Positions 14,271 to 30,290 of a DNA stretch of 44,432 nt are shown in pieces. This stretch comes from Paludibacteraceae bacterium (lineage in GTDB: Bacteria > Bacteroidota > Bacteroidia > Bacteroidales > Paludibacteraceae): assembly GCA_017430235.1 (NCBI GenBank), contig JAFRNH010000043.1, forward strand, positions 1 through 44,432. Direction: 5' to 3'. The translations under genes were made by a program, and so were the position numbers. Each line of letters starts with the position of its first letter. The first letter of the stretch is position 1. The notes beneath the pieces were generated by a model. The model had not been told where the DNA came from. It worked only from the letters and a program-made list of their open reading frames with translations, and did no database searches.

Positions 14271-14278
14271 ACAAGGTG

Positions 14279-14286: not shown

Positions 14287-14300
14287 TGAGAAAATTTCAA

Positions 14301-15302: not shown

Positions 15303-15381
15303 GGATGAATCTGATTGGTGATTATCGAGGGTTATTCTTTGTGATTTTCAAACAAGGTACAAAGTTATGAGAAAATTCTGA
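15303..15381 (-). repeat. 79-bp conserved spacer of the J-protein array, copy 1
   Basis: This spacer and the one at 16354-16432 have the same length and nearly the same sequence, including the segment just upstream of the start codon and a - strand TAACTTTG -7 box close to the preceding stop. The duplicated unit was therefore gene plus spacer. Confidence 0.8.
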
Positions 15382-16353
15382 TTAACGTTGTAGTTTCTCA
15401 TAAGCATCGTTGATTTTCATCATCATCTCCTCGCATTCCTCGATTCTATCGGCGTTTTTCGGCAAATCAGGATGGTGCTGAAGGACTAAGTTATGATAGG
15501 CTTGTTTGATCTCTTCGATGGATGCCTCCTCCTTCAATCCTAGTACGGCATAATAGGGTTTCAATCTGGCAACAGAATACTCTCCCAGTGTTGATGTGCT
15601 CTTACGTTCATAATCGTCAAATTCAGTACGCAATGGGGAGTATCGGTTCTTGAAATATTCGATGTAACGGTTGTTGAATTTCAGTTGCGTCATTATCTGT
15701 ATCAATAGTTTCCATTCATCATTATGGATGCCGTCTTGCTCAACTGTGAGTTTGAACAGGAGTTCCATCAGAGTCTTCTTCTTTCCCAACTCTTTTCCCC
15801 TCCAATATTGATAGGCGCTCTCTATTTGCGCATCTGAATACTCCTTGTCGAAGACAAGTTTAAGTTCCTTTTCATTCAAAAAACCCGATAGAAATGTCTT
15901 CTGTTCCTCTTTTGCTTCTTCGTTTAGTTGACATAGCTGATTGATGCATGGCAGTAGATAAGAAATGGAATCATCGTCACCTAACTGCGTTCTGTGGGAG
16001 ATATAATCCTCTATCTCTTTTTTTGTCATGCCCCATTTTTTCTCATGATTTTGGAAGACACGGTCTGAGAAACGACTAAAGATTTGCAGATTGTTTACCC
16101 ATTTAGGGTATTTGGTCATACTAAGTATATAACTAACGCCCAACCCCGGTACTATAAGAACAAAAAACGCAAAACCTACAGATTCTACTATTTCGTGAGG
16201 TAGAAGGAATATTAATCCAACTCCAAGGAAAAGAGATAGAGGAACTAAGATGACTTTCAAAAAGAATTTAATAAGAAGATCTGGTGTTTTGAAGAAAATG
16301 GTATTAAATGTCTTTACCTGTTCATATTGACGAACAATTTCGTTTCTGTTCAT
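15382..16353 (-). CDS. DjlA-like membrane J-domain protein, copy 2
   Basis: A 323-residue paralogue of the genes on either side. The first 25 residues and everything from about residue 105 on align closely with copy 1; the hydrophobic part between (about 30-85, containing VILVPLSLFLGVGLIF and AFFVLIVPGLG segments) is unrelated in detail. The TerB-like motif [10 protein letters not shown] is kept and the HPD triad is at 294-296. As in copy 1, the J domain is at the very C-terminus. It is flanked by 79-bp spacers that match each other. Function is inferred from domain order only: membrane-anchored recruitment of DnaK. Confidence 0.8.
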   Translation of the reverse strand: MNRNEIVRQYEQVKTFNTIFFKTPDLLIKFFLKVILVPLSLFLGVGLIFLLPHEIVESVGFAFFVLIVPGLGVSYILSMTKYPKWVNNLQIFSRFSDRVFQNHEKKWGMTKKEIEDYISHRTQLGDDDSISYLLPCINQLCQLNEEAKEEQKTFLSGFLNEKELKLVFDKEYSDAQIESAYQYWRGKELGKKKTLMELLFKLTVEQDGIHNDEWKLLIQIMTQLKFNNRYIEYFKNRYSPLRTEFDDYERKSTSTLGEYSVARLKPYYAVLGLKEEASIEEIKQAYHNLVLQHHPDLPKNADRIEECEEMMMKINDAYEKLQR

Positions 16354-16432
16354 GGATGAATCTGATTGGTGAATATCGAGGGTTATTCTTTGTTATTCTC
16401 ATTCAATGTACAAAGTTATGGGAAAATTCCGA
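16354..16432 (-). repeat. 79-bp conserved spacer of the J-protein array, copy 2
   Basis: Near-identical partner of 15303-15381, also with the CAAAGTTATG block (a - strand -7 box). Confidence 0.8.
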
Positions 16433-17386
16433 TTAACGTTGTAGTTTCTCATAAGCATCGTTGATTTTCATCATCATCTCCTCGCATTCCTCGATTCTAT
16501 CGGCGTTTTTCGGTAAATCAGGATGGTGTTGCAGGGCCAGGTTATGATAGGCTTGTCTAATCTCCTCGATGGATGCGTCCTTCTCCAATCCAAGCACTGC
16601 ATAATAAGGCTCTAAACTAGCAGCAGAGTACTCTCCCAGCGATGAGGTACTCTTGCGTTCGAAATCATCAAATTCTGTACGTAAAGAGGAATATCGGTTC
16701 TTGAAATAGTAGAAGTAATTTTCGTTGAACCTCAATTGCGTCATTATCTGCATCAACAGTTTCCACTCATCATTGTGGATGCCATCCTGTTCAACTGCCA
16801 GTTTGAATAGGAGCTCCATCAGGGACTTCTTCTCTCCCAGACCTGTTTCCTTCCAATACTGATAAGACTTCTCTATTTGTGAATCGGAATATTCCTGATC
16901 GAAGGCAAGTTCAAGTTCCTTTTCATCCAAGAACCCCGATAGAAACGTCTCCTGTTCCTTTTTTGCTCCTTCATTCAGCTGACATAGCTGATTGATGCAT
17001 GGTAGCAGATAAGGGATGGAATCATCGGCGCCTAATTGTTTTCTATGGGAGATATAATTCTCTATTTTTTCCTTTGTTATGCCCCATTCCTTTTCATGGT
17101 GGTGGAAAAAACGGTCAGAGATACGACTAAAGATTCGCAGGTTGGACACCCATTTAAGATATTTTGTATCGAGATAAATAACAGGAAGGGAATAAAAGCC
17201 TATAAGTATTAATACGAGAGAGATTTCTCCAATATCGTATATAATAGCTAATACAATTCCAATAATAATGGTAAAACATGGTAAAGATTTCAAAAAGAGT
17301 TCAATAAGAAAATTCGGTGCATCGAAGAAAATAGTGTGAATTAACTTTACCCGTTCATATTGGCGAACAATCTCGTTTCTGTTCAT
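16433..17386 (-). CDS. DjlA-like membrane J-domain protein, copy 3
   Basis: A 317-residue paralogue from the ATG at 17386, chosen because it gives the same N-terminus (MNRNEIVRQYERVKLIH) and the same preceding bases as copies 1 and 2; the frame remains open for 37 more codons upstream but that part is not shared. Two hydrophobic segments lie at about 35-75, the TerB-like [10 protein letters not shown] motif is kept, and the HPD triad is at 288-290. Downstream of about residue 80 it is very close to copy 1 (for example FSRISDRFFHHHEKEWGIT). It is the first gene of the array, divergent from sodB. Confidence 0.8.
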   Translation of the reverse strand: MNRNEIVRQYERVKLIHTIFFDAPNFLIELFLKSLPCFTIIIGIVLAIIYDIGEISLVLILIGFYSLPVIYLDTKYLKWVSNLRIFSRISDRFFHHHEKEWGITKEKIENYISHRKQLGADDSIPYLLPCINQLCQLNEGAKKEQETFLSGFLDEKELELAFDQEYSDSQIEKSYQYWKETGLGEKKSLMELLFKLAVEQDGIHNDEWKLLMQIMTQLRFNENYFYYFKNRYSSLRTEFDDFERKSTSSLGEYSAASLEPYYAVLGLEKDASIEEIRQAYHNLALQHHPDLPKNADRIEECEEMMMKINDAYEKLQR

Positions 17387-17539
17387 GGATGAATCTGATT
17401 GGTTGTGAATGAAGATAATACGTGATTTTAATAGGGAAGAATGCAATTCTTCCGTACAAAGATATTTATTTTGTAGCATAGATGTGGAAATGAGCATAGA
17501 AAAATCCGATTATTTTTATATATTTGGCAGGCAATGATA

Positions 17540-17570
17540 TTTGTCTTGTCGTACATTCGTTCTAGTTGTG
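17540..17570 (+). promoter_or_regulatory. Candidate sodB promoter
   Basis: TTTG at 17540-17543 and TAGTTGTG at 17563-17570 (one mismatch to TAnnTTTG) are 19 bases apart, about 80 bases before the sodB start. A second TATATTTG at 17519-17526 lacks a good -33. Confidence 0.4.
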
Positions 17571-17650
17571 TATGGAAGGTGTGTTCGCAGAAGATAGTAT
17601 AAGAGAATGTTTTCTAACAAGGGGTTATCCTCATAATAAATAAAAAACAA

Positions 17651-18232
17651 ATGAATCAATTTGAGTTAATTCAGTTACCGTTCGAACCTAATGCGTTGGA
17701 ACCTGTCATCAGTCAGAAAACAATAGAGTTGCACCATGGAAAGCACCTTCAGACGTATGTGAACAACCTAAACAATCTGCTTCCTGGAAGTGGATTGGAA
17801 GGTCTCTCTTTGGAAGAAATTGTGAAACGTTCTAGTGGTGGAATTTTCAACAATGCAGGGCAGATTTTAAATCATAACATGTATTTTCAGGCTCTTCGTA
17901 ACCCTACGGAGAATAATGCACCTCAGGGGAAACTGAAGAGCATGATTGAAAGTCAGTTTGGCTCTTTCGAAGCCTTTCAGAAAGAGTTTCAACAGAAAGG
18001 AGCTACCTTGTTTGGTTCTGGTTGGGTTTGGCTCTCTCTTGCTCAAGATGGTCAATTAGTAATCACACAAGAGAGTAACGCAGGAAATCCGCTTACTTCT
18101 GGCTTAACTCCATTGTTAACCTTCGATGTTTGGGAACATGCCTATTATGTGGATTTCCAAAACCGTCGACCAGACTATCTCTCTGCCATGTGGAAAATTG
18201 TGGCATGGGATGTGGTGGAACAACGGTTGTAG
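17651..18232 (+). CDS. sodB: Superoxide dismutase, Fe or cambialistic Fe/Mn type
   Basis: A 193-residue Fe/Mn superoxide dismutase that converts superoxide to oxygen and hydrogen peroxide in the cytoplasm. Metal ligands are H28 (ELHHGKH), H75 (ILNHNMY), D159 and H163 (TFDVWEHAYY). Q71 sits at the position of the active-site glutamine of iron enzymes (NNAGQILNHN), which favours iron or cambialistic use over strict manganese. Length is normal. Its TAG stop abuts, with no spacing, the stop of the convergent PLP-enzyme gene at 18233, and there is no terminator between them, so the two transcripts must overlap. Confidence 0.96.
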   Translation: MNQFELIQLPFEPNALEPVISQKTIELHHGKHLQTYVNNLNNLLPGSGLEGLSLEEIVKRSSGGIFNNAGQILNHNMYFQALRNPTENNAPQGKLKSMIESQFGSFEAFQKEFQQKGATLFGSGWVWLSLAQDGQLVITQESNAGNPLTSGLTPLLTFDVWEHAYYVDFQNRRPDYLSAMWKIVAWDVVEQRL

Positions 18233-19405
18233 TTAATGTAGGGCCTGCAAGATATCCTCGAATAGATCATTGACGGATTCTAGTCCGACACTCAATCTAA
18301 TTGTAGTGTCACGGACGTCCATTGCTCTTCGCTGAGAACCAGCAAAGGCTCCGAAAATGGTGGAGGCTGGGTGGATGGCTAATGTTTTACTATCGAACAT
18401 ATTGGTGGCACGACTAATGAGATTCAGGTGGTTGATGAAGTTGAAACATGCTTGTTTGCTATCGAGATCAATAGTGATCATAGCCCCGGAAGTCTCTCCA
18501 AACTGTTTGCGTGCTAAGTCGTAGAATGGGTTGTCGGGTAGCCCGATGTAATTGACGCGTTTTATTTCTGGCACCTTTTGTAGTCGTTTTGCCAGTTCGA
18601 GTGCGTTGGCGGCGTGCACGGTATAGCGAGCGGATAGGGTTTCTAATCCGATGGTTTGCATATAAGCCGCATGTGGAGTCATGTAGGCACCAAGGTTATA
18701 GAGCAGTTCGAATTTAATGCTTCGATAAAGTGATGGGAAACGACCATAGTCGATGACAACACCTCCAAGCGAGGTGGCACCTCCTGATATGTACTTTGTG
18801 CTTGATATCACCTCGATGTCGATACCTAAACCTGATGCATCAAAAAATGAGAAAGGAATAACAGTCGTATCTGCCACCAATGGAATGTTGTGTCGACGGG
18901 CAATCTCTGATAGAATAGAGATATCTGCCACTTCGAGTTGTGGATTGGTCACAATCTCGAAATAGATGAGCGATGTGTTGTCATCGATGGCGGCATCCAC
19001 CTGTTCGGGATCAAGGAGGTCGACGTAGCGTGTCTCAACTCCAAATCGCCCCATTGTATTGGTGAAGAGAGAAACCGTGTTGCCAAAGAGATGTTTGGAG
19101 GTGACAATATTGCGTCCGCTGGCTGTCAGTGCTACGATTGTGTTGGCGATGGCGGCCATTCCAGAATTGAATGCGTAAACATTTTTGGCTCCGCTCATCT
19201 GTTTTACCCGGTCTTCGAAAAATGTGACCGTAGGGTTGGTCACTCTCGAGTAACTGGGGTTGCTTGATCTGCCAGTGAAAGCGTCGTTCATATCCTCAGC
19301 CGACTGGAATCCATAGGCAGCTGAATGGTACACGGGCATATTAAGTGCCCCGTACACATCAGCATGCTGTGGTTGAGTATGAAGTGCAAGCGTTTGCTTT
19401 TCCAT
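18233..19405 (-). CDS. Cys/Met-metabolism PLP enzyme (MetY / cystathionine gamma-synthase-like)
   Basis: A 390-residue fold-type I PLP enzyme. The Schiff-base lysine is K204 in ISSTKYISGGATSLGG and the cofactor aspartate D179 in VADTTVIPF. The SNPSYSRVTNPT segment near residue 50 places it in the family with O-acetylhomoserine sulfhydrylase, cystathionine gamma-synthase and methionine gamma-lyase. The exact reaction is uncertain. It is the last gene of the encapsulin operon, 36 bases after the cysteine desulfurase. A MetY of this family accepts sulfur from a protein thiocarboxylate in Wolinella succinogenes, so homocysteine formation from the local carrier protein is attractive. A lyase role, supplying sulfide, is the main alternative. 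It is clearly distinct from the MetY at 28881. Confidence 0.8.
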   Translation of the reverse strand: MEKQTLALHTQPQHADVYGALNMPVYHSAAYGFQSAEDMNDAFTGRSSNPSYSRVTNPTVTFFEDRVKQMSGAKNVYAFNSGMAAIANTIVALTASGRNIVTSKHLFGNTVSLFTNTMGRFGVETRYVDLLDPEQVDAAIDDNTSLIYFEIVTNPQLEVADISILSEIARRHNIPLVADTTVIPFSFFDASGLGIDIEVISSTKYISGGATSLGGVVIDYGRFPSLYRSIKFELLYNLGAYMTPHAAYMQTIGLETLSARYTVHAANALELAKRLQKVPEIKRVNYIGLPDNPFYDLARKQFGETSGAMITIDLDSKQACFNFINHLNLISRATNMFDSKTLAIHPASTIFGAFAGSQRRAMDVRDTTIRLSVGLESVNDLFEDILQALH

Positions 19406-19441
19406 AATATAACTTCACTTTTAAATTATAGACTTCATCTT

Positions 19442-21082
19442 TTATGATCGTACATTGCTCGACACAATCTTTTCAAGGGCTGAAACGAGTCGGTCGATCT
19501 CTTCTCGCGTGTTGTAGACTGCGAAGGTTGGACGTACAGACATCTCGTAGCCTAATGCTCTTAGAGCAGGTTGTGCGCAATGGTGTCCGGCACGGACAGC
19601 TATACCTTCCTGATCCAACATTTTTCCGACTACTGGAGCAGGAATGCCATGAACGTCGAGTGAGATAACACTCACACGTTTCTTGGGATCTCCCATGATG
19701 GTGATGCCAGAGATTCTGGATATCTGCTGACGTGCATATTCAGTCAAATCATGTTCGTGACGTTCGATATTTTCAATGCCCACTGACGAAACAAAATCCA
19801 AGGCGTATCCCAATCCGATGGCATCGGCTATGTTGGGTGTTCCTGCTTCAAATCGAGCTGGAGGATCGTTAAATTCTGTGCGTTCGATGGTAACATCTTT
19901 GATCATGTTACCACCCCCTTGCCAAGGAGGAAGTAGTTCGAGCATCTCTTTTCTACCATAGACGACACCAATTCCAGAAGGACCATAGATTTTATGTCCG
20001 GAGAAGACGAAGAAATCACAATCTAATCTTTGCACATCGACACGTGTGTGTGCGATACTTTGAGCTCCGTCGATTAAAACAGGGATGTTATGACTATGGG
20101 CAATTTTAATGATGGTTTCTACATCATTGATTGTGCCAAAGGTGTTATTGACATGTCCCACCGAGATGAATTTAGTGCGAGGAGTGATAAGACGCTCTAA
20201 CTCGGAGAGGATTAGGTCACCATTCTTATCGATAGGAATAGCTCGCAGTTCAGCGTTACGTTCACGACAGATTTGTTGCCAAGGGACGATGTTGGCATGA
20301 TGGTCTAATGTAGAGACGATCACATTGTCACCTGCTTCCACATATTTGCGTCCGAAGGTTTGTGCAACGAGGTTTATACCTTCTGTTGTGCCGCGCACGA
20401 AGACGATGTTTTCTTGTGAAGGAGCGTTGATGAAACGGGCCACTTTCTCGCGTGCTGCCTCATATTGGTCGGTACTACGTGCCGCAAGAGTGTGAGCACC
20501 ACGGTGGATGTTGGAGTAGTCATGTTTGTAGAATTCACTTAAACCATCGATCACACGCAGAGGTTTCTGTGTGGTGGCGCCATTGTCAAACCAGATTAGG
20601 TCATGGCCGTTCACCTTTTGATTCAGGATAGGAAACTGTTTCCTTATCTCATCTGTATTTGCCGTATCCACCTCTTCGTATTTGAGGTTTTTCACCAGTT
20701 CGGTTTCTGGTATACCGATACCAAATCCATTCTCAGCTGCAATGCCGTTGGCGTTTGCATCATCGGAGTGGCTGTTGGATACAGAAGAGGGTGAATCATC
20801 ATCGAAATAGATGTTCCCTAGTAAATTTGATGAGGGGGCTCCACCATGCAATAGAGAGGTGAATTCCTTTTCGATTTCAGAAAAGTTAAACTCATCAATT
20901 TCGGAAGGAACTATTGGGGAGACAACCGATTTCACCTCTTCAGGGCAATACTTTTGAGCAATGGCTCGAAGAGCGGCAATGTCACTATTGCCGTTTAGCC
21001 CTTGCCCTGCGGATGGAAAGCCGTTGGGCCTTCCATTGAGGGGGAAACTAGGTTGTGTATTATCTAACTCGTTGAAATACAT
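19442..21082 (-). CDS. Encapsulin-cargo cysteine desulfurase (SufS-like) with disordered N-terminal extension
   Basis: A 546-residue protein. Residues about 143-546 are a complete SufS-type cysteine desulfurase: D338 (IDGAQSIAH), PLP lysine K364 (FSGHKIYGPSGIG) and catalytic cysteine C502 (RAGHHCAQPALR). It takes sulfur from cysteine as an enzyme persulfide, leaving alanine. The first ~140 residues are not part of the usual 400-residue enzyme: they are low-complexity, rich in Gly, Ser, Asn, Pro and Asp, with short possible docking patches (DIAALRAIAQKYCP, NLLGNIYFDDD). Such extensions mark the desulfurase cargo of family 2 encapsulins. Its ATG shares one base with the shell-gene stop (TAATG), implying coupled translation and matched amounts. 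C46 in the extension is a further thiol. This is the probable lumen enzyme. Confidence 0.93.
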   Translation of the reverse strand: MYFNELDNTQPSFPLNGRPNGFPSAGQGLNGNSDIAALRAIAQKYCPEEVKSVVSPIVPSEIDEFNFSEIEKEFTSLLHGGAPSSNLLGNIYFDDDSPSSVSNSHSDDANANGIAAENGFGIGIPETELVKNLKYEEVDTANTDEIRKQFPILNQKVNGHDLIWFDNGATTQKPLRVIDGLSEFYKHDYSNIHRGAHTLAARSTDQYEAAREKVARFINAPSQENIVFVRGTTEGINLVAQTFGRKYVEAGDNVIVSTLDHHANIVPWQQICRERNAELRAIPIDKNGDLILSELERLITPRTKFISVGHVNNTFGTINDVETIIKIAHSHNIPVLIDGAQSIAHTRVDVQRLDCDFFVFSGHKIYGPSGIGVVYGRKEMLELLPPWQGGGNMIKDVTIERTEFNDPPARFEAGTPNIADAIGLGYALDFVSSVGIENIERHEHDLTEYARQQISRISGITIMGDPKKRVSVISLDVHGIPAPVVGKMLDQEGIAVRAGHHCAQPALRALGYEMSVRPTFAVYNTREEIDRLVSALEKIVSSNVRS

Positions 21083-22521
21083 TATTTTTCGATTTTATTT
21101 CTATGTTGGTAATCGTGATAATAACCTACTTCTACATTTTCAAGAACGGCGATGGCATCGTCGGTAAGAGAAGCAAGTGAGAAGTATTTGGTGAGCAAGT
21201 AACTAGCAACGCCATATTGGTCGAGAGCCATCAATCGAGCAGACAATGATGGAGCGATTTCACCTGGAATACCAGATTGATGGAGTCCGACGACACCTTG
21301 CTCCTTCTCTCCAACACGCACAAGAATGATGTCTGTTGTACCGACACCACGGTTGGTTAGATATTGTCCCTTAATCTCCACTTTGTCTGATGGAATGATT
21401 GGTACACCACGCCAAGTGATCACCTTGGTTCCAAACACATCGATAGAGACAGGAGGTACACCACGCCATGTGCATTCACGCTCGAAGGCTGCGATAGCAC
21501 GAGGATGAGCAATGAAGAAAGCAGGAGACTTCCATACTAAACTTAACAACTCATCAAGGTCGTCTGGTGTAGGCGAACCATAGCGAGCACTGATCTTATA
21601 ACCAGGTGCTGTCTGAGCCAACAAACCGAACTTCTTATTGTTGATCAACTCCCATTCTTGACGCTCTTTCAAACTTTCGATAGAGAGACGTAGTTGTTGC
21701 TCCAACTGGTTGTAAGGCGCATTGTAAAGATCGCTGACACGAGTGTGTACACGCACTACAGTTTGAAGGGTGTTGAGAGAATACTCAGTTGGATTCTCAT
21801 CATAATCGATGTATGTTTCAGGAACCACCATATCCTCTTCGTGACCAGAAACAAGGTCAATATGTTTCTCTCCATGATCGTTGACGGTTGCTTTGAGACG
21901 AAGATGCTCGTCGACTGCCGTGTCGAATTGTTTTCTGAAATCAGGGAACTCCTTTACAAGTTTATTCAGAACGGATAACTCTAAAGCTAAGAAAACAGAA
22001 TCGGTTACAGTTCTAACAGAGACCGTTGAGGCAGCTGCACTTAACAATTCAGCTTCACCAAAATATTCACCTGCACCGAGTAGGGCGATACGCAGTTCTT
22101 CGCCGTGGATTCCAGAACTCAATACTTCAGCTTGACCACTGGCTACGATAAAGAACTTCTGTTTGTCAACGCCTTGTGTTATAAGATTCTCTCCACGTTT
22201 CACTTCATAAGGAACGAAATTATTGGCAAGACGAGCCACAATTTCACTATCGATATGTTGGAAGAGAGGAATAGCACTTAGGTCTTTTGCAGAGAAACTA
22301 GGGACTCCATTATAATACTGAATTTCAATTCTTTCAGCCTTTTTAAGTTCCACTTTTGTACGATTCACACGATAAGTGCCGCTTTCTACTTGGGTCCAAG
22401 GTAATAACTTGAGTAGTAATCTTGGTGTGATGGAGCCCATCTGAGGGGCGGTTTTGGTGGTGTTAGCAAGTTTGCGGGCCGTTGCCGCTGTAATACTTCT
22501 TTGGATGTTGTTGTCTGACAT
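21082..22521 (-). CDS. Family 2 encapsulin shell protein with cyclic-nucleotide-binding-like insertion (2B-type)
   Basis: A 479-residue HK97-fold shell protein. The N-terminal arm (about 1-60: ATARKLANTTKTAPQMGSITPRLLLKLLPW, in two blocks) and the core (about 233-479, with ETYIDYDENPTEY, RVHTRVSDLYNAP, ERECTWRGVPP, TWRGVPIIPSDK) correspond to SrpI-type family 2 shells. Between them, about 78-205, is a Crp-like cyclic-nucleotide-binding domain (LSAIPLFQHIDSE, then GEYFGEAELLSAAASTVSVRT). The arginine that normally contacts the phosphate in that cassette appears to be Ser/Ala. The protein should assemble into a hollow icosahedral compartment around the desulfurase encoded next. It could be mistaken for a Crp/Fnr regulator, but no helix-turn-helix domain is present. 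Confidence 0.93.
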   Translation of the reverse strand: MSDNNIQRSITAATARKLANTTKTAPQMGSITPRLLLKLLPWTQVESGTYRVNRTKVELKKAERIEIQYYNGVPSFSAKDLSAIPLFQHIDSEIVARLANNFVPYEVKRGENLITQGVDKQKFFIVASGQAEVLSSGIHGEELRIALLGAGEYFGEAELLSAAASTVSVRTVTDSVFLALELSVLNKLVKEFPDFRKQFDTAVDEHLRLKATVNDHGEKHIDLVSGHEEDMVVPETYIDYDENPTEYSLNTLQTVVRVHTRVSDLYNAPYNQLEQQLRLSIESLKERQEWELINNKKFGLLAQTAPGYKISARYGSPTPDDLDELLSLVWKSPAFFIAHPRAIAAFERECTWRGVPPVSIDVFGTKVITWRGVPIIPSDKVEIKGQYLTNRGVGTTDIILVRVGEKEQGVVGLHQSGIPGEIAPSLSARLMALDQYGVASYLLTKYFSLASLTDDAIAVLENVEVGYYHDYQHRNKIEK

Positions 22522-22619
22522 TTTAGAAAAATTTTTAAGTTAATATTGGGTGGGTTTTATAAATTCACTTTATCAACCCATAAATCATACTATTTATTCA
22601 AATTGATGAATTATCAAGT

Positions 22620-23018
22620 TCATCTCAGGTTGATACGATCTATTACCTCTCCATTTTGAATTTTGAAAGCATTGAAAACGGGTGTCTCTTCAGCAAGTGA
22701 GAGAATAAAGTAGTAGATGTCAGGATCGTGTGCAAGCTTTATGTCTTCCGCGGAAGGTCTGCTTGGCGATGCTGGATGGCTATGCCAGTTTCCCACTATT
22801 TTAAGACCGTTGCGACGAGCATAATTGAGAGCTTCGAACTGCTCACGAGGAGCGAAACTAAAATGCTCGGGAGAGTGATCGATATTGGTCATTTGATAAT
22901 TTTGTGTAACCGTCTCTTCATCAGGACCTAACAGATAACCGCACGATTCAATCGGCGCATCATTACGAGCCTGATTTAATAGAGAATTGTAAGCTTCTTC
23001 TGTTATAGTTAATGCCAT
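22620..23018 (-). CDS. JAMM/MPN+ metalloprotease (Mec-like)
   Basis: A 132-residue single-domain JAMM protein. The zinc site is complete: E24 (PIESCGYLLG), H79 and H81 (NWHSHP), S89 and D92 (PSAED). Stand-alone bacterial JAMM proteins beside ubiquitin-like sulfur carriers remove extra C-terminal residues to expose Gly-Gly, or release the amino acid formed on the carrier (Mec in Mycobacterium, HcyD in Wolinella). Here the carrier at 24697 does have two or three residues after its first Gly-Gly, so trimming is a natural job. It lies 98 bases upstream of the shell gene and 64 downstream of tusA in the same operon. Confidence 0.9.
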   Translation of the reverse strand: MALTITEEAYNSLLNQARNDAPIESCGYLLGPDEETVTQNYQMTNIDHSPEHFSFAPREQFEALNYARRNGLKIVGNWHSHPASPSRPSAEDIKLAHDPDIYYFILSLAEETPVFNAFKIQNGEVIDRINLR

Positions 23019-23082
23019 ACTTTGTTGATTATAAGAAGGTTTGAAACTGAAGTTGACAATCTCAAAAAAGAGATTCCCACAT

Positions 23083-23307
23083 TTATTTTTGAATAATCAC
23101 TTTATGTACAGGTCCCTCTACATGAGTGACGGAAAGCACTTGATAGCCTTGCTCTTTAGCAGATTTTGGTAAATTATTAAGAGGTTCACCTTCCGTTAGT
23201 AGCACTTCGAGTGTATCGCCCTCTGCTATCTGAGCTAATTTTAATTTTGTTTTCACAAACGTCATTGGACAGTGCTCGTTTGTAATATCTAAAACATGAT
23301 TTGCCAT
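23083..23307 (-). CDS. tusA: TusA-family sulfurtransferase
   Basis: A 74-residue TusA/SirA-fold protein. The sulfur-binding cysteine is C13 in NEHCPMTFVKTK, the family Cys-Pro site, followed by the GDTLEVLLTEGEP strand. TusA proteins accept persulfide sulfur from cysteine desulfurases and hand it on. In this operon it could link the encapsulated desulfurase, the DsrE-like protein 27 bases upstream and the MoeB/carrier pair. A role in tRNA thiolation, as for E. coli TusA, is the alternative, but the neighbours argue for sulfur relay within this operon. Confidence 0.9.
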   Translation of the reverse strand: MANHVLDITNEHCPMTFVKTKLKLAQIAEGDTLEVLLTEGEPLNNLPKSAKEQGYQVLSVTHVEGPVHKVIIQK

Positions 23308-23334
23308 ACTAATAACGAATTATAAGGTTAATAA

Positions 23335-23817
23335 CTAGATAAATAGTGTACGACCGCCTTCGCTTAGTTCAAGGAATGTGTTGACACCAAGTACGTCTTT
23401 CACTTCATGAATAAAGTCTTTCTTTTCAAGGCCTAAGACGTGCATAGCCATTTCACATGCATATAGGTTTATTCCAAGAGCATTTGCTGCATCCACTAAT
23501 TCTTCGAGGGTGGCAACGTTATTTTTCTTCATTAGATATCTGAAGATACGAGGACCGATACCGAAGAAATTGAATCGGCTTGTTGGGGTGTTGCTTAATC
23601 CGCCCATCATGAAACCAAATAGTTTGGTAAGCCAATTTTTACCGAGGAAGGCACGTCCCTTTTCCGCTTTGATGGCGTCAAGTCCCCAAAACGTAAAAAA
23701 GATGTTCACCTCATATCCAGAGGCAGCTGCACCTGTGGCAAGAGTGAAGACGGCTGTCAGTCTGTCAAAATCACCAGAGAAGGCGATAAGAGATATTTTT
23801 TTCTTTTGTTCTTCCAT
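23335..23817 (-). CDS. DsrE/DsrF-like (DsrE2-type) sulfur-transfer protein
   Basis: A 160-residue DsrE-family protein. The N-terminal strand and glycine turn (ISLIAFSGDFDRLTAVFTLATGA) and a conserved cysteine, C121 in LYACEMAMHVLGL, fit the DsrE2 group, which commonly occurs with TusA and rhodanese in sulfur-oxidising or sulfur-storing gene sets. It lacks the duplicated or membrane-bound form seen in some relatives; the GKNWLTKLFGFMMGGL segment is moderately hydrophobic and could be peripheral to the membrane. It sits between moeB (7 bases) and tusA (27 bases). I infer persulfide exchange with TusA through C121. Confidence 0.88.
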   Translation of the reverse strand: MEEQKKKISLIAFSGDFDRLTAVFTLATGAAASGYEVNIFFTFWGLDAIKAEKGRAFLGKNWLTKLFGFMMGGLSNTPTSRFNFFGIGPRIFRYLMKKNNVATLEELVDAANALGINLYACEMAMHVLGLEKKDFIHEVKDVLGVNTFLELSEGGRTLFI

Positions 23818-23824
23818 ACGATAT

Positions 23825-24649
23825 TTATTTATTTGATGCCTTGTGTGATGCTAAATCACATGTAGCTTGTTCATAATCAATAAGATGTGTCACTGTTGGA
23901 TTTTTACCGCAAAGAGGACATCTATCATGACGTTTTAAATTGATTTTTCTGAAATCCATTGTTTTGGCGTTGAAAGTCAGCAGTTTGTTGGTCAGTAGTT
24001 CGCCCACACCTGTGAAATACTTCAAAGTTTCCGCTGCTTGTATGGTACCTAACATTCCTGCGATTGCCCCTAATACTCCAGCTTGCGAACATGTAGGAAC
24101 TGCCCCAGCAGGCGGTGGTCCGTCGAAAGTACAGCGGTAACAAGCACTTCCCGGCACATAGGTGAAGGTTTGACCCTCGAATCGCAGAATACCACCATGC
24201 GAGAATGGTTTGCCAGCCATAACACAAGCATCGTTGATTAAAAATTTGACTGGGAAATTGTCGGTTCCATCCACCACGAAATCATAATCAGATATGATGT
24301 CAAGGGCATTATTGGCCATTAGGAAATCGCGATGTGTGACAACCTCAACACTTGGATTTATTGCTTGGATGGTCTCTTTGGCTGATTCAACTTTATATCT
24401 GCCCACATCAGGAGTAGTGTGTATGATTTGTCTTTGAAGATTACTCAGATCGACTACATCACCATCGACAATACCAATCTTGCCTATACCGGCTGCCGCA
24501 AGATACATAGCTACGGGAGCACCCAATCCACCTGCACCGACGATCAGGACTTTTGCCTCTCGAATACGCTCTTGCCCTTCAACTCCTACGTCTTTCAATA
24601 GAATATGACGGGAATAACGATTTAATTCTTCTTCTGTGAAATCGTACAT
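23825..24649 (-). CDS. moeB: MoeB/ThiF-family sulfur-carrier adenylyltransferase
   Basis: A 274-residue E1-like enzyme. The nucleotide site is VLIVGAGGLGAPVAMYL (about 34-50), R14 lies in NRYSRHILL, and the zinc cysteines are C170, C173 (CYRC) and C244, C247 (CPLC). C187 (PTCSQAGVLG) is in the position of the family's catalytic cysteine. It should adenylate the C-terminal glycine of the ThiS/MoaD-like protein encoded just upstream, for sulfuration. There is no C-terminal rhodanese domain, so sulfur must come from a separate protein, plausibly TusA, DsrE or the desulfurase. The general symbol is used; its partner here suggests a thiocarboxylate system rather than molybdopterin synthesis, since no other moa genes are present. 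Confidence 0.92.
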   Translation of the reverse strand: MYDFTEEELNRYSRHILLKDVGVEGQERIREAKVLIVGAGGLGAPVAMYLAAAGIGKIGIVDGDVVDLSNLQRQIIHTTPDVGRYKVESAKETIQAINPSVEVVTHRDFLMANNALDIISDYDFVVDGTDNFPVKFLINDACVMAGKPFSHGGILRFEGQTFTYVPGSACYRCTFDGPPPAGAVPTCSQAGVLGAIAGMLGTIQAAETLKYFTGVGELLTNKLLTFNAKTMDFRKINLKRHDRCPLCGKNPTVTHLIDYEQATCDLASHKASNK

Positions 24650-24696
24650 ATGTTAGTTGATTTTTTTAGTTATAAAATTGAGATGATATCGATGCA

Positions 24697-24909
24697 TTAA
24701 AAAGCACCTCCGCCCATGAAGTAAAGGAAGTCGACCTGATCACCCTCTTTTAAAGAGAATGTTTCAAATTCACTACGCTCTACAAACTCTTCGTTTACTT
24801 GTATGCTTACCATGTCGGGTTGTAGAATATTATTTAGCTTGATCAAATCCACCAACGTTAATGGAAGTGTCACCTCTTGATTTTTTCCGTTTACGATTAT
24901 ATTTGCCAT
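24697..24909 (-). CDS. ThiS/MoaD-like sulfur carrier protein with extended C-terminus
   Basis: A 70-residue ubiquitin-fold sulfur carrier (MANIIVNGKNQEV at the start, LKEGDQVDFLYFMGGGAF at the end). Mature carriers must end in Gly-Gly to be adenylated and converted to a thiocarboxylate. This one is encoded as Gly-Gly-Gly-Ala-Phe-stop, checked codon by codon, so it needs trimming; the JAMM protease at 22620 is the obvious candidate. It lies between cysK and moeB (32 and 47 bases), the arrangement of CysO-type cysteine synthesis systems. It could be named ThiS by automated pipelines, but there are no thiamine genes here. Confidence 0.9.
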   Translation of the reverse strand: MANIIVNGKNQEVTLPLTLVDLIKLNNILQPDMVSIQVNEEFVERSEFETFSLKEGDQVDFLYFMGGGAF

Positions 24910-24941
24910 TGTTTATTATATATTTAATAGTTAATGATTTA

Positions 24942-25880
24942 TTATATGTCTTGGTCGAATAAAGGAGTAGAATAGTATCTCTCTCCTGTGTCGGGAAGTA
25001 ATGCAACGATGTATTTTCCTTTGTTTTCAGGACGACCAGCCAAAACCGATGCGGCATAGGCGGCTGCTCCTGATGAGATACCAACTGAAATGCCTTCCTT
25101 TCGTGCAATCAAACGAGCCATGTCAAAAGCTTCATCGGTTCGTACTCGAATGATCTCGTCGTAGATGGAAGTGTTTAATACTTTAGGGACAAAGCCTGCA
25201 CCTATCCCTTGTAATTTGTGAGGGCCAGGTTTCTTACCGGAAAGAACTGCACTGTCAAAAGGCTCTACTGCGACGATTTTTACATTCGGATTACGTGCCT
25301 TAAGAGTTTCTCCAACACCTGTTATGGTACCTCCTGTACCTACTCCTGATACAAAAAAGTCAACCTTTCCGTCGGTGTCCTCCCATATCTCCAAACCTGT
25401 TGTTGAACGATGAATGGCAGGATTGGCATAATTGTCAAACTGCTGAGGAATATAAGAGTTAGGAATTTCGGACGCCAATTCACGTGCTTTTCGGATAGCT
25501 CCTGGCATTCCTTCAAATGCGGGGGTTAGCACAAGCTCTGCACCGTATGCCTTTAACAACGCTCTTCTTTCTATACTCATCGAATCGGGCATGGTTAAGA
25601 TCAATCTGTAACCGCGAGTGGCAGCTACAATGGCCAAACCAATTCCTGTATTTCCACTCGTAGGTTCGATAATCGTTGTGTTCTTGTTTAAAATCCCAGC
25701 TCGTTCAGCACTCTCTATTAATGAAAGTCCTACTCGGTCTTTTACACTTCTTCCAGGATTTAAATACTCTAATTTGGCAAGTAGTTTTCCTCCTAATCCT
25801 TGCTCCTTTTCAATTTTCTTTAGTTCGAGTATCGGCGTTTTACCGATTAAGTCAACAATACTTTGTGCTATTTTTTTCAT
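24942..25880 (-). CDS. Cysteine synthase family PLP enzyme, encapsulin operon copy
   Basis: A 312-residue fold-type II PLP enzyme of the CysK/CysM family. The Schiff-base lysine is K47 in NPGRSVKDRV, and [13 protein letters not shown] and [13 protein letters not shown] are the substrate- and phosphate-binding loops. The residue before the SVKD motif is Arg, where the second copy (27922) has Gly-neighboured Ala (NPAGSVKDR), so the active-site entrance differs. As first gene of the carrier/JAMM/encapsulin operon it may use protein thiocarboxylate rather than free sulfide, as CysM does with CysO in Mycobacterium. Whether the acceptor is O-acetylserine or O-phosphoserine cannot be read with certainty. 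Its promoter carries the putative Rrf2 site. Confidence 0.9.
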   Translation of the reverse strand: MKKIAQSIVDLIGKTPILELKKIEKEQGLGGKLLAKLEYLNPGRSVKDRVGLSLIESAERAGILNKNTTIIEPTSGNTGIGLAIVAATRGYRLILTMPDSMSIERRALLKAYGAELVLTPAFEGMPGAIRKARELASEIPNSYIPQQFDNYANPAIHRSTTGLEIWEDTDGKVDFFVSGVGTGGTITGVGETLKARNPNVKIVAVEPFDSAVLSGKKPGPHKLQGIGAGFVPKVLNTSIYDEIIRVRTDEAFDMARLIARKEGISVGISSGAAAYAASVLAGRPENKGKYIVALLPDTGERYYSTPLFDQDI

Positions 25881-25914
25881 CTCTTACTCCTTCCTTTTTT
25901 TAAGTTAGACGATG

Positions 25915-25961
25915 CAAATATATATATAATTAATCTACTAACCTACTATTTTAATAGGTTA
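25915..25961 (-). promoter_or_regulatory. Promoter of the encapsulin operon with putative Rrf2 operator
   Basis: On the - strand the -7 box is TATATTTG (25915-25922). The -33 position is occupied not by TTTG but by part of an inverted repeat, TAACCTA-N9-TAGGTTA (25939-25961). The left arm begins 18 bases from the -7 box, exactly as in the metY promoter. A site over -33 suits either repression or activation replacing a poor -33. Confidence 0.7.
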
Positions 25962-26046
25962 TTTTTGAAAAAATATGTAATGTTCAATAAATCAGAAATA
26001 TAAGATTGAAACTTGTGGTATAAAAAAGAGGCGTTTGGCTAAAAAA

Positions 26047-26062
26047 ATAGGTTTAAACCTAT
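26047..26062. repeat. Perfect 16-bp palindrome between the two sulfur operons
   Basis: ATAGGTTTAAACCTAT is a perfect palindrome made of the same half-sites as the putative operators but in the opposite orientation. It lies downstream of the 26113 gene and upstream of the encapsulin-operon promoter. It may be an auxiliary site; it has no T run, so a terminator is unlikely. Confidence 0.45.
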
Positions 26063-26112
26063 CAAGAAGGGTAAAATTTAGTAGGATAAGAGTGAATTTA
26101 TTGGGGTTAGAA

Positions 26113-26547
26113 TTATGAATTTTGGGGTTTCCATAAAAACAGGCCTTCGGAGTTGGCCAGCGACTGTATCAAATTGAGTGCTTCTTCATCGGTGGAGTAG
26201 ATGGTTATGTATAGGTCGTCGCCACTGATATAGAGCATAGTATTCAGGGACGAAACGATTACATATAATGGTTTTTTCTCGAGGATCCATTTTTCAAGTA
26301 GATTTGGTTGTGGGTTGTGAACCCATTTTTCGGAAGAGTGAAAGACGTTGATTGCTTCATAGCAGTTTAGTTTCAGTAGGAGAGCGATCTGTTTTTGTAG
26401 GATGATATTCATCCAATGAGAATTTCGGATATAATCCTCTATTTGAAAGTATTGTCCAGGGCTATTTGCAGGAACCTGTTTGGGTAGGACATCCACTACC
26501 CAATAAGGTTTCGACAAATAGTTATCTATTAGATCCGTATCCTCCAT
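26113..26547 (-). CDS. Hypothetical protein downstream of the Rrf2 regulator
   Basis: A 144-residue protein I do not recognise. It is soluble, has no signal peptide or membrane span, and no obvious metal motif; one Cys occurs at LKLNCYEAINVF. The start VDVLPKQVPANSPGQYFQIEDYI and the hydrophobic strand pair KKPLYVIVSSLNTMLYISGDDLYITIYS suggest an alpha/beta fold. It begins four bases after the rrf2 stop, so it is cotranscribed with the regulator and the metY-cysK-nadA operon; a role as partner or effector of the regulator is possible but unproven. Confidence 0.7.
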   Translation of the reverse strand: MEDTDLIDNYLSKPYWVVDVLPKQVPANSPGQYFQIEDYIRNSHWMNIILQKQIALLLKLNCYEAINVFHSSEKWVHNPQPNLLEKWILEKKPLYVIVSSLNTMLYISGDDLYITIYSTDEEALNLIQSLANSEGLFLWKPQNS

Positions 26548-26551
26548 ATAA

Positions 26552-26989
26552 TTAAAGCATAGAGTTTAGATAGCTGACGTTATCATCCTTTTTTACGAGG
26601 TCTGCTAGGGTTATTCTATTGAAGAAGTTGTTGACCATATCGTTTAGTTCGCGCCACATGGGAAGTGTTCGACATTCAGCCAGACGTTTGCAAGGCTGAG
26701 CGTTACATTCGAGGCAAGCTACGGGCGACAATGATTCTTCAGTAACCTTTAGGATGTCGGCAATTTTGTATTCAGACGGATCACGAGTAAGTCGATAGCC
26801 ACCACCTTTTCCATGAACACCCTCTACGAGTCCGTTTTTGGACAAGAGAGTCATGATGTTTTCCACATATTTTTGGGAAATTTCCTGACGTCCAGTGATG
26901 TCTTTTAGTCTGATGAAATCGTTGGAAGCCTGTTCCGCGATGTCAATTAGAACTCTGATGGCATATCGCCCACGCGTAGATATTAGCAT
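26552..26989 (-). CDS. Rrf2-family transcriptional regulator with four-cysteine cluster site
   Basis: A 145-residue Rrf2 protein. The winged helix occupies about residues 1-70 (RGRYAIRVLIDIAEQ, ISQKYVENIMTLLSKNGLVEGVHGKGGGYRLTR). The effector region has four cysteines, C92, C95, C100 and C106 (VACLECNAQPCKRLAEC), close to the IscR cluster-ligand pattern, so an Fe-S cluster or cysteine-thiol sensor is likely. CymR-type members of the family control cysteine synthesis genes by responding to the CysK/O-acetylserine state. It is encoded inside the metY-cysK-nadA operon. Inverted repeats at both sulfur promoters are its candidate sites, implying autoregulation plus control of the encapsulin operon. 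Confidence 0.92.
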   Translation of the reverse strand: MLISTRGRYAIRVLIDIAEQASNDFIRLKDITGRQEISQKYVENIMTLLSKNGLVEGVHGKGGGYRLTRDPSEYKIADILKVTEESLSPVACLECNAQPCKRLAECRTLPMWRELNDMVNNFFNRITLADLVKKDDNVSYLNSML

Positions 26990-27001
26990 AATACAATAAT
27001 T

Positions 27002-27919
27002 TTAGCCTAACCTCAGCATCTCGTCTATGCAATGTTTAGCTTTGATGCGTTGGTCTTCTTCAAGATTAATAACTTCACCGCCAACGCCGGTAACGCATTC
27101 GAGTACGTCGCCAAGTGTTGTCGCTTTCATGTTGAGGCACACGCATAATTTGGACAAAGGGAAGAACCTTTTGTTAGGGGCTTCCAACTGTAGATGTTGA
27201 ACGATGCTGTTTTCTGTACCGATGATGAATTCGGAGTGTTTGTCATCTTTTTTAGCAAAGCTCATGATTTCAGTTGTGCTACCCACGAAATCAGCGAGTG
27301 CGGTCACCTCAGGTTTGCATTCTGGGTGTACGAGCAGTGCGGCATTTGGATGTTCTCTTCGGGCATTCTCCACATCATTCACGGTCATGCGAAGGTGCGT
27401 TGGACAACCACCGGCGATGAATTTGAAATTCTTCTCTGGTACTTGTTGTTTCACCCAGTTACCTAAATTGCAATCGGGGATGAATAGGATTTTGTCCGTA
27501 TCGATAGCTTTGATTATTTTAACGGCAGAAGAAGAGGTGACGCATACGTCACATTCCGTTTTCAATTCTGCCGTGGTGTTGATGTAGGCTACGGTTTTGT
27601 AGCCAGGGAACTCTTTTTTTAACGCTCTTAATTGTGCTGCGTCAATTTGCTCAGCCATTGGACATCCGGCTACGCTATTGGATAATATAACACGTTTTTG
27701 AGGAGAAAGAATCTTTACGGTTTCAGCCATGAATCTAACACCGCACATGATGACGGTGTCCTCTTTTGCGGAGGCCGCTTTTTGACTTAAACCAAAAGAG
27801 TCGCCGATATAATCGGCGATCTCCCAAATATCGTGACTCTGGTAGGCATGAGCAAGAATACAGATGCCTTTTTCTTTTTTTAGCCGTATGATCTCGGCTT
27901 GCATTTCACTTATTGTCAT
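27002..27919 (-). CDS. nadA: Quinolinate synthase
   Basis: A 305-residue NadA, normal for the short form. It makes quinolinate from iminoaspartate and dihydroxyacetone phosphate using an oxygen-sensitive [4Fe-4S] cluster. Conserved cysteines include C59 (IMCGVRFMAE), C86 (SVAGCPMAE), C172 (AGGCPTH), C201 (HPEC) and C259/C261 (KLCVCLNM); three of these serve as cluster ligands. No nadB or nadC is adjacent. It starts two bases after the cysK stop and is followed 12 bases later by rrf2, so this Fe-S enzyme is tied to the sulfur regulator. This may reflect a shared need for cysteine-derived sulfur. Confidence 0.95.
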   Translation of the reverse strand: MTISEMQAEIIRLKKEKGICILAHAYQSHDIWEIADYIGDSFGLSQKAASAKEDTVIMCGVRFMAETVKILSPQKRVILSNSVAGCPMAEQIDAAQLRALKKEFPGYKTVAYINTTAELKTECDVCVTSSSAVKIIKAIDTDKILFIPDCNLGNWVKQQVPEKNFKFIAGGCPTHLRMTVNDVENARREHPNAALLVHPECKPEVTALADFVGSTTEIMSFAKKDDKHSEFIIGTENSIVQHLQLEAPNKRFFPLSKLCVCLNMKATTLGDVLECVTGVGGEVINLEEDQRIKAKHCIDEMLRLG

Positions 27920-27921
27920 AA

Positions 27922-28854
27922 TCAGTCTGCGAATAATGGAGTACTAAGATAACGGTCGCCCGTATCTGGTAGCAAAACTACAATATTTTTCCCAATATTC
28001 TCTGATTTTTTTGCAAGTTGTATAGCTGCCCATACTGCAGCACCTGATGAAATACCTACTAATACGCCCTCTTTATGGCCTACTAACTTACCTGTTTCAA
28101 AGGCATCTTCGTTCTGTACTGTGATGATCTCGTCATATACCTTGGTGTCAAGAACATCTGGTACGAAACCAGCTCCGATACCTTGAATCTTATGAGATCC
28201 AGCAACTCCAGTTGACAATACAGCGGAGGTAGCAGGTTCTACAGCAACAATCTTTACGTTAGGTTTCTTTGATTTTAAATACTTACCTACACCTGTGATG
28301 GTTCCTCCTGTTCCTACACCAGCGACAAAGATGTCTACACTTCCGTCGGTATCACTATATATTTCGGGTCCTGTTGTCTTGAAGTGTGTCTCTGGATTGG
28401 CAGGGTTAACGAATTGACCAGGGATGAAACTGTTAGGTGTTGATTGAGCCAACTCTTCAGCTTTGGCAATGGCACCTTTCATTCCCTTGGTTCCTTCGGT
28501 TAATACAAGTTCGGCACCATAGGCTTTCATCAATTGTCTGCGCTCAATACTCATTGTCTCAGGCATCACAATAATAATGCGGTAACCACGAGCAGCAGCC
28601 ACACTCGCCAAACCAATACCTGTGTTTCCACTTGTTGGTTCAATGATAACCGATCCTTTCTTCAATTTCCCAGACTTCTCAGCGTCTTCGATCATCGCTT
28701 TAGCAATGCGATCCTTTACGCTTCCTGCTGGATTGAAATATTCTAGCTTGGCGAAAATTTTTGCCTTTAGATTCTCTGCTTTCTCTATGTTCGTTAATTC
28801 GAGAAGTGGTGTGTGACCGATTAATTGATCGGCTGATGTTGCTATTTTTGTCAT
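27922..28854 (-). CDS. cysK: Cysteine synthase A (O-acetylserine sulfhydrylase)
   Basis: A 310-residue CysK: PLP lysine K47 in [10 protein letters not shown], the [11 protein letters not shown] substrate loop, [13 protein letters not shown] phosphate cup, and [15 protein letters not shown] near the C-terminus. It makes cysteine from O-acetylserine and sulfide. It lies 26 bases after metY and two bases before nadA. This copy has the standard CysK motifs and is the likely housekeeping enzyme, in contrast to the paralogue in the encapsulin operon. CysK-type proteins also bind partner proteins through their active sites, including CymR-like Rrf2 regulators, which is of interest given rrf2 downstream. 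Confidence 0.95.
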
Positions 28855-28880
28855 GATGATATCCTCCTATTAATTAGATA

Positions 28881-30173: not shown

Positions 30174-30245
30174 AATGACCTCCTTGTTTTTATGTTTTTT
30201 TGTTTTTTGATATTCTTGTTATTATTTTTTTATTGTTTGATGTTG

Positions 30246-30290
30246 CAAAGATAAATAATATTTTCCTACCAACCTACTGTCTTGGTGGTT
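30246..30290 (-). promoter_or_regulatory. metY operon promoter with putative Rrf2 operator
   Basis: The - strand -7 box is TATCTTTG (30246-30253). AACCTACT begins 18 bases away (30271), as in the encapsulin-operon promoter, and again replaces the -33 TTTG. The symmetry is looser here; ACCAA-N9-TTGGT (30268-30286) and AACC-N12-GGTT (30271-30290) overlap. Confidence 0.65.

Follow-up and report, generated by a model that had tools for sequence, protein, structure and literature searches.

A family 2B encapsulin and cysteine desulfurase linked with a ubiquitin-like thiocarboxylate cassette in a Paludibacteraceae bacterium

The DNA analyzed here, called the window, is a stretch of 44,432 nt from a Paludibacteraceae bacterium (assembly GCA_017430235.1, contig JAFRNH010000043.1). 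Nine open reading frames (ORFs), all on the minus strand and spanning 18233-25880 in ORF coordinates of the window, bring together a family 2B encapsulin shell, a cysteine desulfurase, a cassette of ubiquitin-like sulfur carrier, MoeB and JAMM peptidase, the relay proteins DsrE2 and TusA, and two enzymes of CysK and MetY type. Co-selection of the encapsulated desulfurase and the ubiquitin-like thiocarboxylate cassette is well supported in this group of bacteria. With a probability of roughly 0.6, sulfur is handed over directly between them, the shell and desulfurase forming a sulfur bank that has its own withdrawal route through relay, carrier and MetY. The basis of this reading is the gene identities, the catalytic residues, the carrier tails, the co-occurrence of the genes, a linkage that is rearranged yet kept, and a promoter site present in many relatives.

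A sequence-only reading of the same DNA had described nine same-strand genes with short gaps, and they lie at the positions it gave. Family names were checked with Pfam and NCBIfam models, which confirmed every family it had named and refined the shell to type 2B rather than the better-studied 2A. In order of transcription the genes are as follows.

24942..25880, minus strand: CysK-type cysteine synthase (CysK_1); PALP; cysK model TIGR01139, 451 bits, cut-off 351
24697..24909, minus strand: ThiS-like (ubiquitin-like) sulfur carrier, C-terminus MGGG-AF; PF02597 and TIGR01683 (over cut-off)
23825..24649, minus strand: MoeB/HcyF-type E1-like adenylyltransferase, 274 aa; PF00899 as sole domain; PRK05690, 281 bits, cut-off 266
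23335..23817, minus strand: DsrE2-type sulfur relay protein; PF13686 (DrsE_2)
23083..23307, minus strand: TusA-family protein with CPMT; PF01206
22620..23018, minus strand: JAMM/JAB metallopeptidase, HcyD-like; PF14464 (Prok-JAB)
21082..22521, minus strand: family 2B encapsulin shell protein; PF19307, 373 bits; NF041163 (encap_f2b), 550.6 bits, cut-off 400
19442..21082, minus strand: SufS-type cysteine desulfurase, probable cargo; TIGR01979, 549.8 bits, cut-off 475
18233..19405, minus strand: MetY-like enzyme; Cys_Met_Meta_PP; nearest solved structure 3ri6

The intergenic gaps in this order are 32, 47, 7, 27, 64, 98, -1 and 36 nt. JAMM, TusA, DsrE2, MoeB and the ThiS-like carrier are single-domain proteins by the same models.

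Neighborhoods were compared in loci from a shell-alignment scan of named genomes, namely the best 80 of at least 506 confirmed stretches (L091-L170). L091-L150 belong to Bacteroidota, many of them rumen Prevotella-like metagenome-assembled genomes (MAGs), and L151-L170 to Chlorobiaceae, Planctomycetes and Geobacter-like organisms; the Bacteroidota loci include those of the isolate Xylanibacter ruminicola D31d (L113), of Prevotella sp. khp7 (L120) and of Segatella baroniae B14 (L129). The close set comprises 65 loci, L091-L150 and five loci of relatives (L069-L073), and 43 of these have a full flank, that is, at least 6 kb before and at least 4 kb after the shell gene. Another 31 loci lie outside the close set and are Chlorobiaceae-type, planctomycete, Geobacter-like, or of the same class (five, four of them with 2A shells).

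The gene-neighborhood count across Bacteroidota that the sequence-only reading had proposed as a check favors its view of encapsulin, desulfurase and cassette as one set. Carrier, MoeB and JAMM stand together beside the shell in 45 of the 65 close loci and in 33 of the 43 with full flanks; JAMM lies elsewhere in 9 of 16 genomes whose loci show none near the shell, and a common promoter site, treated below, precedes about half of the loci. Over all 65 loci, TusA and desulfurase were each counted in 63, DsrE2 in 62, MetY in 45 and CysK_1 in 33. Every full-flank cassette locus (33/33) contains DsrE2 and TusA, and every one (33/33) contains MetY or CysK. With window proteins as queries, JAMM, TusA and DsrE2 were found in 0 of the 31 loci outside the close set.

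The DsrE2-TusA-shell-desulfurase core is nearly constant, and the cassette occupies four different positions around it. Placement was classed in 49 rows, made up of the window, 45 complete cassettes and 3 partial ones: it is divergent upstream in 17, interleaved as in the window in 16, downstream in 10 and upstream on the same strand in 6. On the best quick shell tree, which has many weak forks, the fewest changes of placement number 13, and supported branches alone force 3-4 changes per type. In Xylanibacter ruminicola D31d, MetY, core and cassette lie in one stretch. Genomes behind 17 of the 20 loci without a full cassette were searched for JAMM, L109 and L145 (short or cut contigs) being left out; it was present in 10 of the 17, and since the L143 copy was already in view, the count elsewhere is 9 of 16. 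In genome G413, the source of L073, JAMM is on another contig.

A co-occurrence sample of 61 relatives was scored with PF19307 for the shell, a JAMM profile (A2, E<=1e-20) and a carrier profile (A3, E<1e-36). Six of them have the shell, namely the genome of the window, 2 of its 15 congeners, and members of three other genera in the family. At these thresholds JAMM and carrier are found in precisely these 6 of the 61 genomes, from 4 genera, and in no others; two weak frames with internal stops (E 2.5e-9 and 4.7e-9) were also matched by the carrier profile. The naive chance of this agreement is 1 in 55.5 million when kinship is ignored. Among 395 genomes of the class, JAMM (E<=1e-20) occurred in 1, that of the window. 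Use of NF041163 as a class-wide marker gave matches in 348 of the 395, only 5 over the cut-off; these arose mostly through the cyclic-nucleotide (cNMP) domain, and thus PF19307 and the JAMM profile were used in its place, the weak cNMP-domain matches (L044-L068) being excluded. Viral contigs yielded one pattern match and zero relatives of the shell. The gene set exceeds a chance grouping, given its rearranged recurrence in other genera and its co-occurrence in the same 6 of 61 genomes.

In a search of solved structures, 9bje (361 bits), 9bix and 9bhu matched shell residues 6-467. These entries are named otherwise in their database records, and we infer that they are solved 2B shells. A cNMP-binding-like domain is inserted in the shell (PF00027, 57.9 bits, residues 106-191). 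In cyclic-nucleotide domains an arginine holds the phosphate. The window shell has Ser165 at that position; all 66 close rows have Ser or Ala there, as do all 26 of the other rows that cover it, with 5 more gapped. Sensing of cyclic nucleotides by the shell was considered and is thought unlikely, because the ligand arginine is replaced in all covered rows; cNMP-binding-like domains of such shells bind no cyclic nucleotide according to passages of PMC12407261.

The shell protein is identical to that of L069 (8984-10423), with 95.6% DNA identity over 21082-22521, and the other genes of the unit have 84-92% DNA identity; this suggests recombination or a very strong constraint. Two adjoining family 2B shell genes occur in the planctomycete and Geobacter-like loci L153, L160 and L165-L169, with a desulfurase visible in most. 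Genome G789 has two encapsulin-desulfurase loci (L205 and L099), one with a whole cassette and the other cut off before the cassette region.

The desulfurase gene adjoins the shell gene, with a median gap of 2 nt over 65 pairs, and its SufS-type domain follows a long N-terminal extension of about 140 residues, a cargo-type feature. The extension contains LRAIAQKYC, and its L-x-x-[LIVM]-A-type motif, a pattern picked after viewing, resembles LARLANEFFS of S. elongatus. The match to f2_encap_cargo1 (NF041166), a 2A model, begins at residue 134 and reaches 697 bits of a cut-off of 800. The desulfurase is the probable cargo of the 2B shell. The genome also encodes another Aminotran_5 protein, C92, with 412 aa, which is probably the housekeeping SufS.

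Carriers of the close set end in MGGG followed by a variable tail of 1-40 residues in 47 of 47 cases. The tail is two residues in 28 of the 47, AF in the window, and the two longest (22 and 40 residues) may be reading artefacts. Beyond GGG the tail varies freely, as expected of a tail removed by a protease and hence of a carrier that is a JAMM substrate. The catalytic pattern of JAMM (E, HSHP, S, D) is invariant in 14 of 14 aligned rows. Its best solved match in a profile search is 2kks (153 bits, next 58.6), and that of the carrier is 2k5p/3cwi (77.4 bits, next 26.9); we take the former to be from Desulfitobacterium and the latter from Geobacter. MoeB keeps PTCSQAGVLG in at least 95% of 48 rows and has no rhodanese domain. 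YACEMAMH of DsrE2 is conserved in at least 95% of 63 rows, and invariant in 16. The usual TusA motif is CPxP; here EHCPMTFVKTK is found in at least 95% of 64 rows. Carrier and MoeB genes overlap or almost touch in many loci (46 gaps, -8 to 248 nt). Judged by sequence, the cassette of carrier, MoeB and JAMM belongs to the known HcyS/HcyF/HcyD type, and JAMM is a probable HcyD-like protease for the carrier tail and for product release.

The best solved match of MetY is 3ri6 (347 bits, next 228), presumably the Wolinella MetY of the HcyS pathway. As a control, the canonical MetY_2 of the same genome (TIGR01326, 627.8 bits) did not have 3ri6 among its matches at 1e-90, and the window MetY is the lowest scorer among five full-length PF01053 proteins of the genome. 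MetY is present in 28 of 33 full-flank cassette loci versus 2 of 10 without the cassette (Fisher p 0.0003). CysK shows no association with the cassette (15/33 versus 7/10, p 0.28). Outside the close set, 25 of the 31 loci have CysK no more than 6 kb from the shell gene and in the same orientation. Because CysK adjoins the shell in loci without the cassette, and because a simple loop from cysteine to cysteine would be futile, it belongs more plausibly to the loading side and probably makes the cysteine that loads the shell. The sequence-only reading had joined all nine genes into one device, with CysK rebuilding cysteine beside MetY on the release side. Its view that shell and cassette belong together stands; the release role of CysK was set aside in favor of loading, and MetY is regarded as the likelier acceptor of carrier sulfur.

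A cysE-like serine acetyltransferase gene lies near the shell in 11 of 65 close loci and 13 of 31 other loci; three of these proteins were scored with TIGR01172 and, at 159-162 bits, fall short of its cut-off (211); one of the three passes the EpsC model. Sulfite reductase (PF01077) was not found in the genome of the window, which is 88% complete, while the positive control matched in 11 of 14; sulfide or organic sulfur is therefore the likely source.

For loading, CysK, with serine acetyltransferase in several relatives, would fix sulfide into cysteine, and the desulfurase, kept in the 2B shell through its N-terminal extension, would convert cysteine to alanine. The sulfur would then remain as desulfurase persulfide or as stored sulfane sulfur. 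For withdrawal, TusA and DsrE2 would collect persulfide sulfur from the inside or the surface of the shell, JAMM would trim the carrier tail to expose GG(G), and MoeB would adenylate the trimmed end, which relay sulfur would convert to a thiocarboxylate. MetY may then couple the carrier thiocarboxylate with O-acetylhomoserine, and JAMM may free homocysteine for methionine. Cysteine sulfur would thus pass to methionine, or be held in the shell, without free sulfide. A stronger version, in which the shell is a rechargeable sulfane-sulfur store tapped only through the ubiquitin-like carrier, one atom per E1-JAMM cycle, and which gives a cysteine-to-methionine route avoiding cystathionine and free sulfide, is offered tentatively and is more likely wrong than right.

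The kept linkage suggests where the sulfur of an encapsulated desulfurase goes in a group of gut bacteria. Since the exit is named (TusA/DsrE2, carrier and MetY) and a candidate regulon is at hand, the question of sulfur destination becomes directly testable. If the hand-over is true, ubiquitin-like chemistry is joined with protein compartments, and there is a hint of how sulfur is banked by gut anaerobes in which sulfate assimilation was not detected.

The families involved also allow that MoeB conjugates the carrier to the shell, the desulfurase or other proteins and that JAMM removes it, tuning the compartment, comparable to archaeal SAMP/JAMM acting on a metabolic enzyme. This is improbable. 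The neighbors are sulfur-transfer and pyridoxal phosphate (PLP) sulfhydrylase genes, the carrier tail varies freely like a removed one, and among solved structures one match clearly leads for each of MetY, JAMM and carrier, these matches coming from organisms that presumably have the sulfur-metabolism operon type. In its favor are the scores of MoeB with the SAMP-activating E1 model (325 bits, below the cut-off of 450) and of JAMM with the desampylase model (76.8 bits, below 130), and the regulation of an enzyme by SAMP1 and HvJAMM1 described in PMC4443979. Least probable of all is that the cassette feeds a thio-cofactor (thiamine, molybdopterin or thio-tRNA) from the desulfurase. The ThiS and MoeB families, and TIGR01683 (thiS) over its cut-off, would fit such a role. 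Against it, a second ThiS (C51) is encoded elsewhere in the genome, no thiamine or molybdopterin partner is among the scanned ORFs of the window, JAMM and MetY accompany the carrier, and the carriers are tailed, whereas five ThiS rows from Chlorobiaceae-type loci end at GGG.

A palindrome, TACC-N8-GGTA, was noticed while upstream regions were being listed and was then fixed as a pattern. It precedes unit starts in 32 of the 65 close loci, mostly about 80 nt 5' of the start codon, at a density of 1.95/kb upstream versus 0.042/kb elsewhere in the loci. A spacing of 8 gave 85 matches, versus 5-24 at any one of the neighboring spacings (5-7 and 9-12). Of 96 upstream regions of 250 nt (divergent pairs counted from both sides), 52 contained the site, versus a mean of 0.24 in mononucleotide shuffles. 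By lead gene, it was found before the carrier in 21/23, DsrE2 in 17/20, CysK in 12/20, the shell in 2/9, MetY in 0/20 and four others in 0/4; all 17 divergent loci (17/17) have it.

Stretches with detached cassettes, including those of G413, were not used to define the pattern. In G413, the core (L073), a carrier-MoeB/MetY pair (L180) and JAMM (L181) have one site each in 17.7-19.0 kb, starting 94, 111-162 and 142 nt, respectively, from the nearest matched codon. Among ten detached cassette loci from 8 genomes (L180, L181, L191 and L198-L204; L205, a second complete shell locus, left out), 7 have a site at most 450 nt upstream of whichever cassette or MetY gene comes first, a limit set after viewing; L198 (848 nt), L199 (3.4 kb) and L204 have none within it. 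The four shell-less MoeB-DsrE2-TusA clusters have no site (0/4). Shell core and cassette are thus apparently under a common switch in many relatives. Several MetY-led units among L099-L103, L113, L115, L124, L127 and L128 seem, by eye, to share a TTTGGA...TCCAAA dyad.

The main rival to hand-over is that of two separate sulfur devices in one regulon, in which shell and desulfurase store sulfur or detoxify cysteine or sulfide, and the cassette makes homocysteine from free sulfide. This is unlikely, though much the strongest of the alternatives. It gains from shell-desulfurase pairs without the cassette in Chlorobiaceae and Planctomycetes, from JAMM lying away from the shell locus or beyond the flank in 9 genomes and in G413, and from the Wolinella carrier, which reportedly takes bisulfide directly. 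It has to account for the hand-over candidates DsrE2 and TusA in all 33 full-flank cassette loci, where they immediately precede the shell gene (JAMM intervening in the interleaved type), for the lack of a detected sulfite reductase in the 88% complete genome, and for the identical presence of shell and of JAMM and carrier across the 61 relatives.

Several observations weigh against direct hand-over. JAMM was absent from another four genomes of the class sample that have a shell (2A in three, 2B in one), from the Chlorobiaceae (0/4) and Planctomycetes (0/3) shell genomes, and was not found anywhere in 7 of the 17 searched genomes of the close set, all MAGs of unstated completeness; one Geobacter-like shell genome has it (1/1), and the positive controls L113 and L120 match. 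The shell therefore works without the cassette. DsrE2 occurs in 14 of 61 relatives (E<1e-90), 8 of them among the 55 shell-less ones, and in four shell-less genomes that were read it stands with MoeB and TusA, so that the relay can serve other ends; neither a carrier nor a JAMM of the window type was found in these four. The link of MetY with the cassette amounts on the shell tree to 3-4 independent pairs on supported branches, a number at which significance is unreachable. The palindrome is absent from 10 of 10 downstream-cassette loci, 10 of 13 interleaved loci and all 20 MetY-led promoters; it is at chance level in the window and absent in L069 and L070, the window's own genus being without it. 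The L-x-x-[LIVM]-A-type motif, its pattern chosen after viewing, is found in 41 of 64 close desulfurase extensions (1.0 by shuffle); in other rows the count is 10 of 25 (0.5 expected).

In the shell-less L177, L178, L182 and L179, MoeB-DsrE2-TusA are 69-82% identical and lie near cystathionine-synthase-like genes. Genes for a methyltransferase and for a MetQ-like lipoprotein are also present in L178; in L179 the cluster adjoins a cysteine synthase gene and a nitrogenase-like pair.

In the window itself, a different site precedes the nine genes, and three features concern their regulation.

25935..25960, minus strand: probable promoter/operator for the nine genes; the AACCTA-N9-TAGGTT dyad overlaps AGTAGGTTAGTAG, with TATATTTG as a -7-like element downstream
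30266..30278, minus strand: second copy of AGTAGGTTRGTAG, preceding the MetY_2-CysK_2-NadA-Rrf2 block
26552..26989, minus strand: Rrf2-family regulator; TIGR00738, 128.6 bits, over cut-off

The -7 element of Bacteroidota is, as we understand it, TAnnTTTG. The region of the dyad and TATATTTG is near-identical in the window, L070 and L069, and the sequence further upstream differs in L069. Conservation up to this point suggests a promoter of their own for the nine genes, starting just before CysK_1. Two copies of AGTAGGTTRGTAG lie in the window (expectation 0.01), one before the nine genes and one before the MetY_2 block; the element precedes both units in L070 and only CysK_1 in L069. Going upstream from the CysK_1 start there are 232 nt, the end of a small ORF, Rrf2, NadA, a second CysK and MetY_2. 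Rrf2 is near the unit in L069 and L070 and was not matched in L071-L084 or in the best 80 of at least 506 loci; it is a candidate regulator of the unit in this genus, outside the core. An Rfam scan of 14000-31000 gave nothing at gathering scores, and a sigma-70/terminator scan was near chance level.

Both halves of the unit are already known, as 2B-desulfurase operons and as the HcyS-type cassette; their combination is without a description in the literature searched. HcyS-HcyF-HcyD-MetY is the homocysteine pathway of Wolinella succinogenes, and CysO-CysM-Mec is a system of Mycobacterium. A 2024 study is said to have found elemental sulfur in a 2A shell. Sections of PMC8346489 count 199 operons of the family 2B-CD type, spread over 9 phyla, and name serine acetyltransferase and rhodanese as the accessories with the strongest enrichment; its main text, supplements aside, makes no mention of MoeB. 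The window shares with 2B and 2A desulfurase encapsulins the cNMP-domain shell and an adjoining desulfurase with an unannotated N-terminal extension; it differs from known 2B-CD operons in that carrier, MoeB, JAMM, TusA, DsrE2 and MetY join the shell. The founding family 2 shell paper leaves the destination of desulfurase sulfur open in the portion consulted (PMC8049743).

The cassette resembles operon type 4e of Iyer et al. 2006, listed for Dhaf, Gmet and Wsuc in sections of PMC1779556, in its ThiS/MoaD-like carrier, rhodanese-less E1, JAB peptidase, SirA/TusA and O-acetylhomoserine sulfhydrylase. According to the same sections, type 4e has sulfate/sulfite assimilation genes, whereas here an encapsulated desulfurase and DsrE2 stand instead. 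CysO-CysM-Mec (types 4c/4d there) also combines carrier, JAMM and cysteine synthase, but the type 4c E1 is fused to rhodanese and the window MoeB has the ThiF domain only. The window synthase is moreover of CysK type, with 288 bits in the CysM model TIGR01138, below its cut-off of 394. SAMP/UbaA/HvJAMM1 of haloarchaea has a comparable ubiquitin-like protein, MoeB-like E1 and JAMM; it differs in the E1 and desampylase models, below whose cut-offs the window proteins fall, and the setting here is sulfur metabolism. The literature search, with most subscription papers, preprints and supplements outside its coverage, showed, among the matches listed, no report of an encapsulin with TusA, with a thiocarboxylate or with the whole combination; encapsulin with DsrE gave only papers that appear unrelated, and encapsulin with Prevotella sulfur gave none.

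Around the unit, the upstream block at 26552-30173 (minus strand; MetY_2, CysK_2, NadA and Rrf2) is a second set of sulfhydrylase and cysteine synthase. The small ORF at 26113-26547 (minus strand, 144 residues) has no Pfam match; it is kept in L070 and was not found in L069. Downstream, a superoxide dismutase (SOD) gene at 17651-18232 (plus strand), whose best model is SOD [Fe] at a score below the cut-off, is convergent with MetY, with 0 nt between the stops. At 14301-17497 (minus strand) there are three tandem paralogous membrane-type proteins with, by visual inspection, a J-domain-like end; L069 shows one copy and L070 at least two.

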